A stretch of DNA of 64,000 nucleotides from a bacterium (GTDB taxonomy: Bacteria; Hinthialibacterota; Hinthialibacteria; OLB16). The stretch spans positions 186,001 through 250,000 of the forward strand of contig JAJVIK010000007.1 in assembly GCA_022072055.1 (NCBI GenBank). The letters are read 5' to 3'. Below, piece by piece: positions 44,231 through 53,821 of this stretch. The notes below the pieces were generated by a model, which was given only the letters and a program-made list of their open reading frames with translations, made no database searches and was not told the DNA's origin. Position 1 is the stretch's first letter. The number at the start of each line of letters is the position of its first letter. The translations under genes were made by a program, and so were the position numbers.

Positions 44231-44689
44231 ATGCGGCTGCGTGGAGAAGGCAAGCGGGTGGTGATCGCGGATGACGCCCCCGAGGTGGTCGATCTGATGA
44301 CCATTGTCCTGGAGCAGCGGGGCTATGAGGTCATCAGCTTCAACAATGGGCGCGACGCCTGGACGCGAATCCCGGAGATCCAGCCGCACGCGGTGCTCCT
44401 GGACATCCTCATGCCGGGGATGGATGGGCTGGAGGTGTGCAGCTCGATCAAGGCCGATCCGGAGCTGGCCAAGACCCCGGTGATCCTGATGACCAGTGTC
44501 ACCGCCGGGTCGGAGATCGCCGACGGGCTGTGGAAGATCGGGACGGACGCGGACGCTTTCTTCAGCAAGCCTTTTAACCCTCTGGAAATCGCGGCGCATG
44601 TGGACCGTTTCATCTTCGGGACCGAGATCCCGCCGGAGTTGAACCGCGGCGGCGGGGGTGGGGCCGCGGCGCGAGTCGAGCCCATTTAA
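44231..44689 (+). CDS. Stand-alone response-regulator receiver protein
   Basis: 152 residues, a single REC domain with no output domain. Acidic pocket VVIADDAPEVV, phospho-acceptor Asp in AVLLDILMPGMDG (about residue 57), Thr in PVILMTSVT, and Lys in FFSKPFNPLEI. The C-terminus is Gly-rich (RGGGGGAAARV). It could serve as phospho-relay or adaptor for the kinase that starts about 180 bases downstream, but that gene has its own promoter. Confidence 0.92.
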   Translation: MRLRGEGKRVVIADDAPEVVDLMTIVLEQRGYEVISFNNGRDAWTRIPEIQPHAVLLDILMPGMDGLEVCSSIKADPELAKTPVILMTSVTAGSEIADGLWKIGTDADAFFSKPFNPLEIAAHVDRFIFGTEIPPELNRGGGGGAAARVEPI

Positions 44690-44811: not shown

Positions 44812-44840
44812 TTGACTTTTCATCTCACCTTTTCTATAGT
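44812..44840 (+). promoter_or_regulatory. Sigma-70-type promoter of the histidine kinase operon
   Basis: TTGACT (44812-44817) and TATAGT (44835-44840) are 17 bases apart. Transcription would start about 20 bases ahead of the TTG start codon, giving a short leader with a weak GGACGG site. Confidence 0.72.
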
Positions 44841-44867: not shown

Positions 44868-47153
44868 TTGACCGACACGAGCCCCCATCCCCACGCCGTT
44901 CGCGGGCGTTTCACGCTCCGGGCCAAGCTGATGCTGGCCTTTGTCCTGGTCAGCCTGATCGGCTTTGTGGCCGCCTTGGTGATCCTGCCGGGGTTGTACA
45001 TCTGGTCCCAGAACCGGGAGATCGACCAGACAATCGAGAGCAACGCTCAAACCTTACGGATTTCCTTCGAGACCGAGATCCAATCCCGGACAATCACACA
45101 ACGTCGCGCCAGCGCCGCCGCGGGGAATCTGATCCGTCTGTTCCCATCTCTCTCTCCCTATTTCAACCTTCAATCACTTGAGGGAATGACGCACCCCCTG
45201 TTGCCCAAGGAATTCTTGGAGACCCTGAGGAAGGCAGAGGTTCCGGCCCCCCTTCAAGAACAAGTCGCGCGCGGATTCGGCGCACTCGAGGAGCGTTTCA
45301 AGATCGTCCTTTTCATTCCATGGAGGGTTCCTCCGCTCTCCAAACGGATCAGCTTGGTTGAATCCCCAGACAGGCGCGCGCTGTACATTCCGTTTCTGAC
45401 TCCTTTTGAAGTGGAGGGCTTCAGCGGAACTTTGGCCATGGCGAATGATCCCTCAGACCCGCTGCTTTTTGAGCACACCGAGAGGAAGATGTCCGAGCTT
45501 CTTGATTATCTTCGAGATGTCGGACTGCGGTCGGCGAAGGAACTGGTTTATTTCTCTCAACCCGAAATGGAGCTCAACGAGGGCCTGGCGGAGAAGGTGG
45601 CGGTCTCCGGGAGCCTGGATTACTGGGAGATACAGGATGAAGAGGGCGCTCAACGGAGACTCTACGTCCCCGTGGACACCCTCAGGGAGCATGGAGGGCT
45701 TGTGGGGGCATTTTGCATCATCTACCCGGCGACACGCTGGCTTTACGCGATGAGGGATCTGCTGACAGGCCCCGCGGTCTACCTTTCCCTGGGCATCGCC
45801 GCGCTGCTCGCGGTCATTTTTTCGTACTTCTTCGCGCAAGGGATCAGCCGTCCGATTCAACAGCTCACCGAGGGAGCGGTGGCCATCGCGCAGGGACGCT
45901 TGGATCGCACCGTGAGTGTCTTAAGCCAGGACGAGATCGGGGTGCTGGCTAAGACATTCAACGAAATGACCGACCGTTTGCGCGCGACCCTTGGGCAACT
46001 GCGCGAACGAGCGGAGACCATCGAACAGCAGAATGTGGAACTGGACCGCCGTTTCAAGGAACTCACCGCCCTTCAGAACTACACCGAGAATGTGCTATCC
46101 ACGGTGGACAGCGCGATCTTCTCGGTGGACCTCGATGGCGTGATCCGCCGCCCTAACCGCGCGGCGCACGCGCTTCTGGGGCTTCAGGACGGCTGCCACC
46201 TCGATGAGCTCGCCTCCGAGGGGCTGCGCGAGCGTCTTCAGGCCGCCCTCGAAACCGGCGAGACCACGGTTTCGGACGAGATGCAAGTCGCCACCCCCGA
46301 GGGGGAGAGCGCGCCCTTCGCTCTATCGGTCTCCCCCTTGCGCGAGGGCGCCGCGATCCGAGGCGCGGTGGCGGTGCTGACCGATCTCCAAACCATCAAG
46401 AACCTGGAAGCCCTGGTGAGCCGCCAGGAGCGTCTCGCGGCGCTTGGGCAGCTGACCGCGGGGGTCGCCCATGAACTCCGCAACCCGCTCAGCATCATCA
46501 AGGCCTGCGCGGAGATCCTTCACCGCCGGTTTTCAGGCGAGAGCGGCGAGAACGGACTCTGCCGCGACATCATCGACGAGGTGGACCGTCTTTCCCGGGT
46601 GGTCTCCGACTTCCTGACCTTCGCGCGTCCCAGCCAACCCAGCCGTCGGACAGTCCACCTGAACGAGCTTCTCGCGCATACCCTGGATCGAGTCGAGCGT
46701 GGCGAGCACAGCGGAGAGGTGATCATCCTCCGGGAACTCGCCGATCCGCTCCCTTCCGTTGACGCGGACCCCGAACAGATTGAGCAGGTGCTCCTCAATC
46801 TCATCCGCAACGGTCTTGAATCGATGGGGTTGCGAGGAGCTTTGGAGATCCGCAGCGGGCAATCCGCGGAGGAGGGGGAGGTGTGGTTCGAGGTTCGGGA
46901 CCACGGGCAAGGGATGGACGAGGCCACGCGGCGGCGGGTTTTCGACCCGTTCTACACCACCAAGGCCGAGGGAACCGGATTGGGGCTTTCGATCTGCCAC
47001 CGGATCCTGGAGGCCCACGGAGGCTCCATTGTGGTGGCCGAAACCAGCAAAGGCGGGGGAACCACTTTCCGGGTGAGCTTCCCGAAATCCGAGAAAGAGG
47101 GTATGAACAGCGACTTGGCGGCCCAGTCGCCCGTGGAGGCCGTCCGTTCATGA
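44868..47153 (+). CDS. Membrane histidine kinase with HAMP, PAS and long extracytoplasmic sensor
   Basis: 761 residues from a TTG start. Helix 1 (LMLAFVLVSLIGFVAALVILPGL, about 21-43) and helix 2 (AVYLSLGIAALLAVIFSYFF, about 302-321) flank a ~255-residue outer sensor of no known family. HAMP (ISRPIQQLTEGAVAIAQGRLD) and PAS (DSAIFSVDLDGVIRRPNRAAH) follow. HisKA has the phospho-His in LTAGVAHELRNPLSIIKA, and the ATPase domain has NLIRNGLESMG, DHGQGMD and GTGLGLSIC. It is NtrB-like in the kinase core. The stop overlaps the next lipoprotein gene (ATGA), suggesting a functional tie. Confidence 0.95.
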   Translation: MTDTSPHPHAVRGRFTLRAKLMLAFVLVSLIGFVAALVILPGLYIWSQNREIDQTIESNAQTLRISFETEIQSRTITQRRASAAAGNLIRLFPSLSPYFNLQSLEGMTHPLLPKEFLETLRKAEVPAPLQEQVARGFGALEERFKIVLFIPWRVPPLSKRISLVESPDRRALYIPFLTPFEVEGFSGTLAMANDPSDPLLFEHTERKMSELLDYLRDVGLRSAKELVYFSQPEMELNEGLAEKVAVSGSLDYWEIQDEEGAQRRLYVPVDTLREHGGLVGAFCIIYPATRWLYAMRDLLTGPAVYLSLGIAALLAVIFSYFFAQGISRPIQQLTEGAVAIAQGRLDRTVSVLSQDEIGVLAKTFNEMTDRLRATLGQLRERAETIEQQNVELDRRFKELTALQNYTENVLSTVDSAIFSVDLDGVIRRPNRAAHALLGLQDGCHLDELASEGLRERLQAALETGETTVSDEMQVATPEGESAPFALSVSPLREGAAIRGAVAVLTDLQTIKNLEALVSRQERLAALGQLTAGVAHELRNPLSIIKACAEILHRRFSGESGENGLCRDIIDEVDRLSRVVSDFLTFARPSQPSRRTVHLNELLAHTLDRVERGEHSGEVIILRELADPLPSVDADPEQIEQVLLNLIRNGLESMGLRGALEIRSGQSAEEGEVWFEVRDHGQGMDEATRRRVFDPFYTTKAEGTGLGLSICHRILEAHGGSIVVAETSKGGGTTFRVSFPKSEKEGMNSDLAAQSPVEAVRS

Positions 47154-47911
47154 ACCCAATTCGTCCCATTCACATTCTCCTTGTCTGCATGCTCGCCCTC
47201 GGGTCCCTTTTCCAGATGGGATGCTCCGCCTGGCGGGAGAGACGGGACAAAGGGGAGTTCAAGTACGAGGAGCCGAAGCTTCCCCCGCTTGCTGAGCCGG
47301 ACATCATTCGGACCCAGCAATACCTGCGGGAAACCCCTTCAGGTCGCCTCAACTCCCTGCAACCGACCCGGATCGCCATTGTCGCGCAGCCGGATTTCGT
47401 GATCGGTTCGGATCCGACCCCTTACCTGAGGAATCAGGTCAAGAAAGCCAAACAAGCGGGGGCGCCCTTCCTCCCCTGCCACTATTACATCGCGCCGGAG
47501 GGGTTGGTTTTGGAGGGTGTCGGCGCGGAGTATTGCGGGTTCATCGGGAGCCGTCGCGTGGGCGACGCCCTCCTCGTTGGGGTCTTGGGGGACTTCGACA
47601 AACCGACCAACTTCATGCCGACCGAGCAGCAACAGGCGCTCATCCAGCTCTGCGCGTGGCTCTGCGCCCAACACTCGATCCAGCCGAGCCGGATTGTTCC
47701 CGCCACCGAGATCTCCAACGAAGCGGAGCCGCTGGGGGTCAACCTGATGAATTGGTTCGGCCCGACTCAGACCCTCCGGGATCGGGTGACCCAGGTTCTT
47801 GAAAAGAACGCGCCCAAGGCCGCCAAACAGCGAAAACAAGACAGCCGCCAGGAATCCTCCCTCTTTGAAGGCTCCAAAGGCCCAAGCAGCATCATGATGG
47901 ATGATTACTGA
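47150..47911 (+). CDS. Lipoprotein with a degenerate amidase_2/PGRP-like domain
   Basis: 253 residues with a lipobox, ALGSLFQMGCSAW (Cys at about 25). The body follows the N-acetylmuramoyl-L-alanine amidase (Amidase_2) fold: CHYYIAPEGLVLEGVGAEYCGFI, DALLVGVLGDFDKPTNFMPTEQQQALIQLCAWLCAQHSIQPSRIV. The zinc-binding residues are not there: the first strand has AQPD where H-H is normal, and the GHRDV loop is VPATEIS. It is therefore probably a non-catalytic ligand binder or a diverged enzyme. The gene is translationally coupled to the histidine kinase. Confidence 0.68.
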   Translation: MNPIRPIHILLVCMLALGSLFQMGCSAWRERRDKGEFKYEEPKLPPLAEPDIIRTQQYLRETPSGRLNSLQPTRIAIVAQPDFVIGSDPTPYLRNQVKKAKQAGAPFLPCHYYIAPEGLVLEGVGAEYCGFIGSRRVGDALLVGVLGDFDKPTNFMPTEQQQALIQLCAWLCAQHSIQPSRIVPATEISNEAEPLGVNLMNWFGPTQTLRDRVTQVLEKNAPKAAKQRKQDSRQESSLFEGSKGPSSIMMDDY

Positions 47912-47923
47912 GATTCGCCCCGC

Positions 47924-48796
47924 ATGAGAATCGACCAACTGCTGTCCCGCCACAAGCCTTCGTTTTCGTTTGAGTTCTTCCCCCCCAAGGATGAGGAGGG
48001 ATTCGCGCAGCTCTATCGCACCCTAGAGACTCTCAAACCGCTCGCGCCGACCTTTGTGTCGGTGACCTTCGGGGCCGGGGGCGGCACCCGGGCCAAGACC
48101 GTCGATCTGGTGAAGCGGATCAAGACCGAGATCGGGCTGGAGCCGATGGCGCACCTCACTTGTGTGGGGATGGATCGCAAGCAACTGTCTGGGATTCTTG
48201 ATGAGCTCCAGTCATCCGGGATCGACAATGTCCTGGCGCTGCGGGGGGATCCCCCCAAGGGGCAGGAGCGCTTTTTGACCACCGAGGGGGGGTTTTCTTA
48301 CGCCAACGAGCTGGCCGCCTTCATCCGCTCGCGTTGGAGCTTCGCCATCGGCGGGGCTTGTTACCCGGAGGTCCATCCGGAGGCCGCGAGCGAGGCGGCC
48401 GACTTGGATGCTCTCAAGCGCAAGGTTGACTCCGGGGCGAGCTTCCTGATCTCCCAACTGTTCTTCGACAATGAGCTCTTCCTGCGCTTCCGCGACAAGG
48501 CGAGCCGGGCTGGAATCCGGACCCCGATTCTCGCGGGGATCATGCCGATCCTGAACACCCGTCAGATCAAGCGCTTCGCGCAGATGTGCGGGGCCTCGAT
48601 CCCGGTTGACTTGGGTCGCAGCATCGAGGCGGTGGAGGATGATGAGGAGGCGGTGCGCCACATCGGCGCCTTCCATGCCACCAACCAGTGCTTGGGGCTG
48701 ATCTCCGAGGGTGTGGACGGAATCCATTTCTACACCTTGAACCGTTCTTCGGCCACACGGGCGATCTACCAACTTTTAAGGACGTGGAGAGGATAG
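47924..48796 (+). CDS. metF: Methylenetetrahydrofolate reductase
   Basis: 290 residues. FSFEFFPPKDEEG at the N-terminus (catalytic Glu in EFFPPK), FVSVTFGAGGGTR, AHLTCVGMDRKQLSGIL, NVLALRGDPPKG and GGACYPEVHPEA are all typical, with FLISQLFFDNELF. It reduces methylene-THF to methyl-THF with FAD, feeding methionine synthase. It is 12 bases after the lipoprotein gene, so it may be on the same transcript, although the functions are unrelated. Confidence 0.96.
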   Translation: MRIDQLLSRHKPSFSFEFFPPKDEEGFAQLYRTLETLKPLAPTFVSVTFGAGGGTRAKTVDLVKRIKTEIGLEPMAHLTCVGMDRKQLSGILDELQSSGIDNVLALRGDPPKGQERFLTTEGGFSYANELAAFIRSRWSFAIGGACYPEVHPEAASEAADLDALKRKVDSGASFLISQLFFDNELFLRFRDKASRAGIRTPILAGIMPILNTRQIKRFAQMCGASIPVDLGRSIEAVEDDEEAVRHIGAFHATNQCLGLISEGVDGIHFYTLNRSSATRAIYQLLRTWRG

Positions 48797-48973: not shown

Positions 48974-50533
48974 ATGACCTCCAATGACCTCCTGGCGCGA
49001 ATTGAGAGAAAGGACCGTCACCTCAAGGCGCTCGCCGACATGAGCGTCAAAATGAACTCCTTTCATACCCTTGAGGAGCTCATGAACTTTGTGGCGACGC
49101 GGACTCGCGAGTTGCTTGAATCTCAGCGCGTGACCATCTTGGTCTGGAACACGGAGATTTCCCGTCTCGTTAAGGTGGCCTCCTCGGGAGGGGAGGAGGA
49201 GGAGCTCCAACCCGGCAGCGGGGAGGAGGTGGCGTTGCGAGCGCTGGAGGCCCATACCCCGATCCTGCTCTCGCGCGACACGACTCAAGAGGATGCCCAG
49301 CGCTCGGGGTCCGAGACTCACGGACCGCCGCTCTCGGTTCTGTTCGTCCCCTTCGAGGACACCGAGGAGGCTTCCGGGGTGATCCATGTGGAGCGTCCCT
49401 TCACTCAGCGGGCTTTCGATGAAGAGGAGATCAGCCTGCTCACCCTGATTGCCTCGCAGACCGCGAGCTCCTATCGGAACGTGCAGCTTCTGTCCGACAT
49501 GAAGGACCAGCTCAAGAACATCCACGCGGTCCAGGAGGTCGGCAACCTGCTGGTCTCCACGCTCGATCTGGACACGGTGCTCAAGCTGATTGTCCGCGGC
49601 ATCCGGGATGTGACCGGCGCGGAGGTCTGCTCGATCATGCTCTGGGACGAAAACCAGGAGCATTTGGTGATCCGGGCCTCGGAGGGGATCCCCAAACGGG
49701 TGGTGCGCGAGGCGCGCGTGCGGCGCGGCGAGAACATCGCCGGGTGGGTGGCCCAGGAGGGCAAGCCGCTGTTGATCCGGAACATCGATGAGGATCGGCG
49801 CTTTGTGGGGACCGCCGGGGGACGGTATCGCTCCAAAGCGGTGCTTTCGGTCCCGCTCAAGGCCAGGGGGCAGGTGCTCGGAGTCATCAATGTCAACAAC
49901 AGCACCACCACCAAGGTGTTCACCGAGGAGGATCAGGAACTGTTGATGCTCTTCGCCAACCACGCCGCGATCGCCCTGGAGAATTCGCACCTCTATGGGG
50001 AGCTTGAGAAGCTCGCGATCACCGATGGGCTTACCGGGCTCGCCAACCACCGCGCCTTCCAGGAGCGTCTCGTGCGCGAGCTTTCCCGCGCCCAACGATT
50101 CCAGCAAGAGGTTTCATTGCTGATCATCGACATCGACCATTTCAAGTCGATCAATGACCGTCACGGTCATCAGGTGGGCGACCAGGTGTTGCGCTCGGTG
50201 GCGGATGCCCTACAGGACCAACTCCGTAAGATGGATTACGTGGCGCGATACGGGGGTGAAGAGTTCGCGGTGATCATGCCGCAAACCCGTAAGACCGAGT
50301 CGGTGCGTATCGCGGAACGTCTCCGCGAACGCATGGCGAACGAGCGCTTTGTCAAAGTCGATCCAACCCGCTCGGTGACCATCAGCGTGGGTGTTTCCGA
50401 GTATCCCAGCGATGCCCGCGAGGCCTCGCAATTGGTCGAGCGAGCGGATCGGGCGTTGTATTTCTCCAAGGAGAACGGTAGGAACCGGGTGACTCCGGCG
50501 GGGATGGACCTTTCCGTGGCCACCGGGGCGTGA
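48974..50533 (+). CDS. GAF-GAF-GGDEF diguanylate cyclase
   Basis: 519 residues. Two GAF domains (about 25-170 and 195-345) precede a GGDEF domain (about 360-510). The signature is GGEEF at 427-431 in YVARYGGEEFAVI; the inhibitory I-site R418-K-M-D lies five residues before it, so product inhibition by c-di-GMP is expected. Mg2+-binding Asp is in IIDIDHFKSINDRHGH. No EAL domain or membrane helix is present. It would raise c-di-GMP in response to a cytoplasmic ligand, and sits directly upstream of hisH without obvious relation. Confidence 0.96.
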   Translation: MTSNDLLARIERKDRHLKALADMSVKMNSFHTLEELMNFVATRTRELLESQRVTILVWNTEISRLVKVASSGGEEEELQPGSGEEVALRALEAHTPILLSRDTTQEDAQRSGSETHGPPLSVLFVPFEDTEEASGVIHVERPFTQRAFDEEEISLLTLIASQTASSYRNVQLLSDMKDQLKNIHAVQEVGNLLVSTLDLDTVLKLIVRGIRDVTGAEVCSIMLWDENQEHLVIRASEGIPKRVVREARVRRGENIAGWVAQEGKPLLIRNIDEDRRFVGTAGGRYRSKAVLSVPLKARGQVLGVINVNNSTTTKVFTEEDQELLMLFANHAAIALENSHLYGELEKLAITDGLTGLANHRAFQERLVRELSRAQRFQQEVSLLIIDIDHFKSINDRHGHQVGDQVLRSVADALQDQLRKMDYVARYGGEEFAVIMPQTRKTESVRIAERLRERMANERFVKVDPTRSVTISVGVSEYPSDAREASQLVERADRALYFSKENGRNRVTPAGMDLSVATGA

Positions 50534-53074: not shown

Positions 53075-53821
53075 TCACCCGCTCACTCCCGAAATCCCAT
53101 CCGCAACCCCCTGATCCCCCCACACCGCCATTCGGATCGCCAACCGCTCAAGTCCGCGCAGGTTGTCGCGGAGTTCGCCCGAGGAGGTTCGCTCGCGGAT
53201 CTCCGGGGTGATCGGGACCTCGATCCCGCGACGAGCGCAAAGGCTCTTCCAGAGGATCTCCAGATCTTCAAGACGCTCGCTCAAGGAGGGAATCCGGATC
53301 TCGAGCGCCCCGATGCGCGCATGGAGGTCCAGCCGGAAGCGCCCGGCGCGGACCTCCTCATCCAGGTTGCGATTCGTGGCGCACACCAGGCGCACCTCGA
53401 CTCTCTTGGGGCGCGCCGCGCCGACCGGCTCGATCAGCCCCTGATCGATCGCCTTGAGCAGCATCGGTTGGACCTCCATCGAGAGTTCCCCGATCTCATC
53501 CAGGAACAGGGTCCCGCCGTCGGCGCGCTCAAAGCACCCCTCGCGGCGGATGTTCGCCCCGGTGAAGGCCCCTCGCTCATGCCCGAAGAGCACCGAATGC
53601 ACCATGGTATTGCCATTCCAGCAGGAACTGTTGACCTCGACAAAGGGGTGCTTCGCGCGCGCTGAGAGACCGTGAGTCCATTCCGCGGCGGCCTGCTTTC
53701 CGACTCCGGACTCGCCGGTGAGGAGGATTGGGTAGTCGGTCCCGGCGGCGCGCGCGAGGTGTTCGCGGGCGCGCCGGATGGCGGCGCTTTCGCCACGCAG
53801 CGGGTAGGGGATTTCGGGCAT
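53075..53821 (-). CDS. Sigma-54 AAA+ activator domain without sensor or DNA-binding domain
   Basis: 248 residues consisting of one AAA+ domain: Walker A LLTGESGVGKQAAAEW, GAFTGA loop complete in LFGHERGAFTGANIRR, Walker B GGTLFLDEIGELSME, and the sensor I CATNR and R-finger region. The C-terminus ends at about the lid subdomain; no Fis-type helix-turn-helix follows and no regulatory domain precedes. Full-length activators are 350-650 residues. It may work from solution without UAS, be regulated by another protein, or be a truncated remnant. The ATPase motifs are undamaged, which argues for activity. Confidence 0.87.
   Translation of the reverse strand: MPEIPYPLRGESAAIRRAREHLARAAGTDYPILLTGESGVGKQAAAEWTHGLSARAKHPFVEVNSSCWNGNTMVHSVLFGHERGAFTGANIRREGCFERADGGTLFLDEIGELSMEVQPMLLKAIDQGLIEPVGAARPKRVEVRLVCATNRNLDEEVRAGRFRLDLHARIGALEIRIPSLSERLEDLEILWKSLCARRGIEVPITPEIRERTSSGELRDNLRGLERLAIRMAVWGDQGVADGISGVSG

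Follow-up and report, generated by a model that had tools for sequence, protein, structure and literature searches.

To our knowledge, how diderm histidine kinases sense the state of the cell wall is still largely open. Two described systems pair a kinase with an accessory lipoprotein. In Enterobacteriaceae and other Pseudomonadota, the kinase QseE is encoded together with QseG, and QseG is described as an outer-membrane lipoprotein that binds the periplasmic part of QseE and activates it (PMC6075780, PMC12691602). In Actinobacteria, the gene of the lipoprotein LpqB lies directly 3' of mtrB, and LpqB is presented as a likely periplasmic modulator of MtrB, with a cell-wall theme (PMC12338722). 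Herein, we describe a sensor histidine kinase gene (44868-47153, TTG start) and a probable lipoprotein gene (47150-47911) in a 64,000-nucleotide stretch of a bacterium of the phylum Hinthialibacterota (assembly GCA_022072055.1, contig JAJVIK010000007.1, positions 186,001 to 250,000). This whole stretch is called the window; positions are counted from its first nucleotide, and the features described between 44231 and 48796 lie on its plus strand. The coordinates of both genes were confirmed exactly. The lipoprotein belongs to a real family of zinc-free lipoproteins resembling peptidoglycan recognition proteins (PGRPs), which fits fully into none of the known families it was tested against. We lean, tentatively, toward the account that it is an accessory protein acting on the kinase as QseG acts on QseE, through a non-catalytic PGRP fold, and probably reporting the state of the cell wall. 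The sample comprised 386 genomes, 14 from the phylum (one class, five families, f1 to f5) and 372 from outside it. Genomes carry G-numbers, with G000 for the window genome, and loci carry L-numbers.

The locus was compared with four kinds of described system. First, it resembles QseE-QseG(-QseF) in that the genes of a kinase and an accessory lipoprotein lie together. However, QseG is described as a helical protein whose C-terminal helix is long (PMC12691602), whereas the model obtained here is of a PGRP-like alpha/beta protein, the two being compared by description only. In addition, QseF, an NtrC-type, sigma-54-type regulator, is not found in the window operon; a methylenetetrahydrofolate reductase (MTHFR) gene comes next in G000 and G001, and a lone receiver-domain regulator lies upstream there. 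Second, the lipoprotein gene lies directly 3' of the kinase gene, as in MtrA-MtrB-LpqB, but the window lipoprotein had no match to an LpqB model in Pfam or NCBIfam. MtrA is a DNA-binding regulator, whereas a lone receiver domain is found near the window kinase. Third, the non-catalytic animal PGRPs (PGRP-LC, LE, SA and SD) are alike in the predicted fold, in having no zinc ligands and in the receptor role proposed here. Unlike the present family, they keep a tyrosine (PMC8124813) that is lost here in 11 of the 12 members, and they serve animal immune pathways and are not known to work with histidine kinases. Finally, the zinc amidases of the Amidase_2 family (AmpD, AmpDh2, AmiD, LysC and T7 lysozyme) share the fold and a remote sequence homology, but they have the His, His and Cys ligands and the tyrosine, whereas the window family is without the ligands and has the tyrosine in a single member.

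The initial annotation of this DNA had read the lipoprotein as a PGRP/Amidase_2 fold without its zinc residues. This held up: the structure model, its Foldseek and VIA matches and the profile alignment all point to that fold and not to a different one, and the ligands are absent from all 12 members. The protein of 253 residues matched Amidase_2 alone in Pfam, below threshold (23.2 bits against a cut-off of 26, E 9.6e-5), and nothing in NCBIfam at E <= 0.1. The cut-off was passed by one member, from G005 (30.4 bits), and a match at E <= 1 was obtained for 11 of the 12 members (best 1.1e-6). An AlphaFold2 model built from four sequences had a mean pLDDT of 62 and a pTM of 0.59; ten-residue blocks over residues 71-220 averaged 56 to 87, and the ends were low. 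Foldseek matched 37 PDB chains at E <= 0.001, led by the zinc amidase 6srt (E 5.6e-7), and every one of the best 50 matches listed was an amidase, an endolysin or a PGRP. VIA-align 2 gave a Z of 14.6 for 6ssc (rmsd 3.3, 138 residues aligned) and of 13.2 for PGRP-LE (rmsd 3.3, 151 aligned), with a Z of 8 reached by 78 of 997 chains. From the model and these structural matches, the PGRP-like domain was placed at about residues 64-222 (47339-47815). With hhalign, the profile of the 12 members aligned to that of 10 zinc homologues from outside the phylum with an E of 1.2e-30, and a profile of the three members from f1, the window's family, did so with an E of 1.9e-14. We considered whether the Amidase_2 match arose by chance and rejected this, since 11 members match and the profile and the predicted fold agree. 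The predicted fold of the lipoprotein is thus PGRP/Amidase_2.

The active-site columns were read in an alignment with a zinc PGRP from G025 as the reference. Neither column of the His-His pair holds a histidine in any of the 12 members, and the second zinc histidine and the zinc cysteine are likewise absent from all of them; the possibility that the loss is peculiar to a single genome was therefore rejected. The column of the catalytic tyrosine holds Tyr in one member (G002), and the window protein has Cys110 there. In f2 and f5 (eight members), NPG stands in place of the former CPG motif, an indication that the family descends from a zinc enzyme. Two residues, His111 of the PxH motif and Asp148, are invariant. 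The second position of the former His-His pair is Asp in nine members (f2, f4 and f5) and Ala in f1. The members have Gly-Asp, versus Gly-Asn in most homologues outside the phylum, among which L099 also has Asp.

The lipoprotein family was found in 12 of the 14 genomes of the phylum. It was not detected in G004 and G011, both draft genomes, even in a more sensitive search at E <= 1. Outside the phylum, the family HMM hit 13 genomes at E <= 1e-8, in 16 loci with 18 matching reading frames, four of which represent two G073 places that were each read from two loci. All 12 matches that cover both the second His and the Cys have these residues, and in the 10 of them that extend to the first His it is present too; the rows that do not reach the Cys belong to the two G073 places (each appearing twice), L099, L100 and, in L089, a short second stretch. 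The 372 outside genomes gave no support, at this threshold, to the idea that homologues without the zinc site are widespread, although rarer cases are possible. With the window lipoprotein alone as the query, no relative was found in the genome contigs on a first scan, and a scan of viral contigs likewise found none. The kinase profile at E <= 1e-3 had no match in the 16 outside loci, whose flanks extend up to 1,500 bases on either side; within these limits, and among lipoprotein matches at E <= 1e-8, no zinc-free relative adjoining such a kinase was seen outside the phylum. At L093 and L098 (G073:C105), also outside the phylum, PGRP-like copies stand in tandem, one with a partly degenerate active site as judged by eye.

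The N-terminus suggests a lipid anchor. Cys25 (47222-47224), the probable lipidated residue, follows a hydrophobic stretch, and a cysteine so placed with Gly, Ala or Ser at position -1 is present in all 12 members. An Omp85 protein was found in 14 of 14 genomes of the phylum, so they are most likely diderm. In E. coli, a lipoprotein without Asp at +2 goes to the outer membrane, a rule that may not hold in this phylum. All 12 lipoproteins have a residue other than Asp at +2 after the Cys, and this together with Omp85 suggests that the lipoprotein probably sits in the outer membrane.

The second line of evidence is the linkage of the two genes. The initial annotation had the lipoprotein start overlapping the kinase stop, and this is indeed the case: the ATG (47150-47152) and the kinase TGA (47151-47153) share an ATGA (47150-47153). 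By eye, a GGAGG lies 10 bases 5' of this ATG, and the lipoprotein stop ends at 47911. Across the phylum, the lipoprotein gene lies directly 3' of the kinase gene on the same strand in 6 of the 12 genomes having both, and in a seventh with one gene between. By family, the linkage is found in 3 of 3 genomes of f1, 1 of 1 of f4 and 3 of 6 of f2. With gene starts as assigned in this analysis, the same ATGA occurs in G001, and the spacing is 12 bases in G002, 1 in G005, 45 in G010 and 120 in G007. In G009, the gene between the two (L013 9144-9596) encodes a DUF2304 membrane protein. In all seven linked loci, the kinase is that genome's best match to the window kinase core. These loci hold 292 open reading frames (ORFs) of at least 90 residues. 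When they were compared between families, matches at E <= 1e-5 were confined to the kinase, the lipoprotein, ORFs lying across either, and one weak pair of ABC transporter genes away from the kinase. No adjacent gene other than the kinase and the lipoprotein is common to f1, f4 and f2, and it is very unlikely that chance brought the same two genes together in three families. The linkage is conserved but not universal.

In f2, the pair belongs to a larger cluster (L030, L031, L013, L062 and L063). The linked genomes of this family have a radical SAM gene 5' of the kinase, which we take to be of the AmmeMemoRadiSam-linked kind, and a B12-radical SAM gene 3' of the lipoprotein, adjoining it in G007 and G010 and one gene further in G009. 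In G003 and G006, a GNAT gene adjoins the kinase gene, and the lipoprotein gene lies on another contig beside a B12-radical SAM gene (gene identity in G003 judged by eye); an older f2 cluster thus seems to have broken apart. The kinase gene of G004 and G012 runs off the contig end, leaving its downstream neighbour unseen, and the G012 lipoprotein is encoded elsewhere.

The kinase has 761 residues in the order TM1, outer sensor, TM2, HAMP, PAS, HisKA and HATPase_c. A Kyte-Doolittle scan placed TM1 at about residues 21-43 (44928-44996) and TM2 at about residues 300-322 (45765-45833). The outer sensor between them, put at some 255 residues by the initial annotation, measures about 256 by hydropathy (about residues 44-299, 44997-45764) and belongs to no Pfam family. 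The other domains were assigned by Pfam: HAMP at residues 321-373 (45828-45986), PAS at 413-508 (46104-46391), HisKA at 526-589 (46443-46634) and HATPase_c at 634-741 (46767-47090). We take the phospho-acceptor to be His535 (46470-46472) from its motif. In NCBIfam, the kinase core is nearest to AtoS and ZraS, under their cut-offs. HAMP was the sole Pfam match in the N-terminal 370 residues, and a Pfam scan of the sensors at E <= 10 returned, besides HAMP, a few weak matches of single members. A single-sequence model of the outer sensor had a pLDDT of 41, too poor for use or for comparison with the four-helix-bundle sensor of the QseEGF system. The kinase core has a clear one-way best match in all 14 genomes of the phylum. 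A second match, where one passed E 1e-40, scored at least 57 bits lower, and none passed in G012 and G013.

A hint of a link to the cell wall also comes from the neighbourhood. In G001, the gene order is receiver-domain regulator, UppP/BacA (undecaprenyl-diphosphate phosphatase), kinase and lipoprotein, the regulator-UppP/BacA pair leading straight into the other two genes (L009 4679-9053). A single-domain response regulator, a possible partner of the kinase assigned by Pfam, is also encoded upstream of the kinase in the window (44231-44689). Its orthologue is in the kinase cluster of G001 and not at the other five linked loci. At E <= 1e-20, orthologues of this regulator were found in 5 of 14 genomes; they lie beside UppP in G001, G002 (C700) and G004 (C385), and adjacent on the opposite strand in G005 (C12). 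In the window genome, UppP is not beside the regulator. With the G001 protein as the query, the window genome gave only weak, partial UppP matches (G000:C1:369941-370771), one of them containing a TGA, unlike the other 13 genomes of the phylum, in each of which there is one near-full match.

We propose the following mechanism. The lipoprotein would descend from a zinc-dependent N-acetylmuramoyl-L-alanine amidase or PGRP, and would have been retained for binding after losing its zinc site and catalytic tyrosine. Its lipid would hold it in a membrane, probably the outer one, and from there it would touch the outer sensor of the kinase. Kinase activity would then be turned up or down by a stem peptide or muropeptide held in the former substrate groove, or by the distance of the lipoprotein from the wall, which is its most likely ligand. 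The parts that we infer here are the lipidation, the membrane, the contact with the kinase, the ligand, the sign of the effect and the output. That the lipoprotein could bind fragments of peptidoglycan and pass a signal to the kinase sensor, as the initial annotation suggested, is plausible, and the interpretation given there is partly supported. In favour of the mechanism, the Drosophila PGRP-LB mutants H42A, Y78F, H152A and C160S are described as still binding peptidoglycan (PMC8124813).

Several observations weigh against this mechanism. The same source terms the tyrosine (Y78 of PGRP-LB) invariant even in non-catalytic PGRPs (PMC8124813). Of the sequence arguments against the family simply copying the receptor-PGRP mode, its loss in 11 of the 12 members is the strongest. 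We regard the more specific proposal, a muropeptide-binding bacterial PGRP lipoprotein of receptor type that signals to a histidine kinase, was reached independently of the animal PGRP receptors and occurs in most genomes of this poorly known phylum, as doubtful. The window lipobox, F-Q-M-G-C with Gln at -3, fails a PROSITE-like pattern, which the other 11 members pass, and confidence in the lipoprotein model is low beyond its core. The pair runs straight into a folate gene in G000 and G001. The sensors of f1 and f2 have no detected sequence similarity beyond the HAMP end, which is not what a conserved contact surface predicts; such fast change between families could mean that the partners change together, or that the coupling is weak. 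Finally, the initial annotation had named a lack of conserved linkage as a refutation, and this did not come true. The linkage is kept in three families while the other adjacent genes differ, but 5 of the 12 genomes with both genes (G003, G006, G008, G012 and G013) carry them on different contigs with other neighbours, and G011 has the kinase with no detected lipoprotein.

The linkage would look the same if the lipoprotein were an accessory protein of the kinase whose PGRP fold is a scaffold, acting by contact or sensing folding, sorting or inter-membrane distance, with no binding of peptidoglycan. This is unlikely in our estimate, though it deserves serious weight. All four active-site residues are gone in 11 members, including the tyrosine that non-catalytic PGRPs keep; QseG is described as activating QseE by itself (PMC6075780), and the title of a cited paper terms NlpE a sentinel of sorting and folding defects. 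However, a mere scaffold does not sit easily with the fold and the His111 of PxH being kept in all 12 members as in the zinc homologues, nor with UppP being in the same gene cluster in G001.

The separation of the genes in those five genomes fits better with an independent envelope lipoprotein, such as a wall tether or hydrolase helper, that adjoins the kinase as a matter of operon convenience. The B12-radical SAM neighbour is kept in G003 and G006 in the absence of the kinase, just as it stands 3' of the lipoprotein in G007 and G010, and in G011 the kinase persists although no lipoprotein was detected. Nevertheless, we consider this quite improbable, given that the kinase and lipoprotein are the sole adjacent genes common to f1, f4 and f2, and that in f1 and f4 the two genes overlap by an ATGA or stand 1 or 12 bases apart. 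That the protein is still an enzyme, acting on the wall or another amide substrate with a new catalytic set (His111, Asp148 and the Asp of the old His-His pair), would suit the two invariant residues, the Gly-Asp signature and the Asp kept in f2, f4 and f5, but is very improbable, as His111 is common to the zinc homologues, in which the His of the PxH motif is not known to be a ligand, the Asp of the former pair is Ala in the window's own family, and the outside homologue L099 also has Asp for Asn.

A dead amidase kept across most genomes of the phylum, often 3' of a kinase, is a concrete candidate for wall sensing. If the proposed mechanism is true, it parallels the way in which animals have made receptors out of amidases. 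A lipoprotein that only touched the kinase would still bring a new fold to the few kinase-regulating lipoproteins. Our search of the literature for inactive bacterial amidase or PGRP proteins acting with kinases gave nothing on point; it was narrow and is weak evidence of novelty.

The surroundings of the pair in the window add some minor observations. A promoter-like TTGACT-17-TATAGT (44812-44840), a consensus match only, lies 27 bases before the kinase start. It matches the consensus at 10 of 12 positions, and 2 such sites occur in the region on both strands versus 0.6 expected. The MTHFR gene (47924-48796), which is the neighbour in G001 as well, begins 12 bases 3' of the lipoprotein gene; it is likely on the same transcript as the pair, and its function is not obviously related. 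The G+C contents of the two genes, 0.617 and 0.605, are near the window value of 0.620, so there is no compositional sign of recent import. Adjoining the MTHFR gene is a gene for a GAF-GAF-GGDEF diguanylate cyclase (48974-50533), assigned by Pfam. About 5 kb from the pair, on the minus strand, an ORF (53075-53821) resembles a short sigma-54 activator AAA domain, with a GAFTGA recognized by eye.

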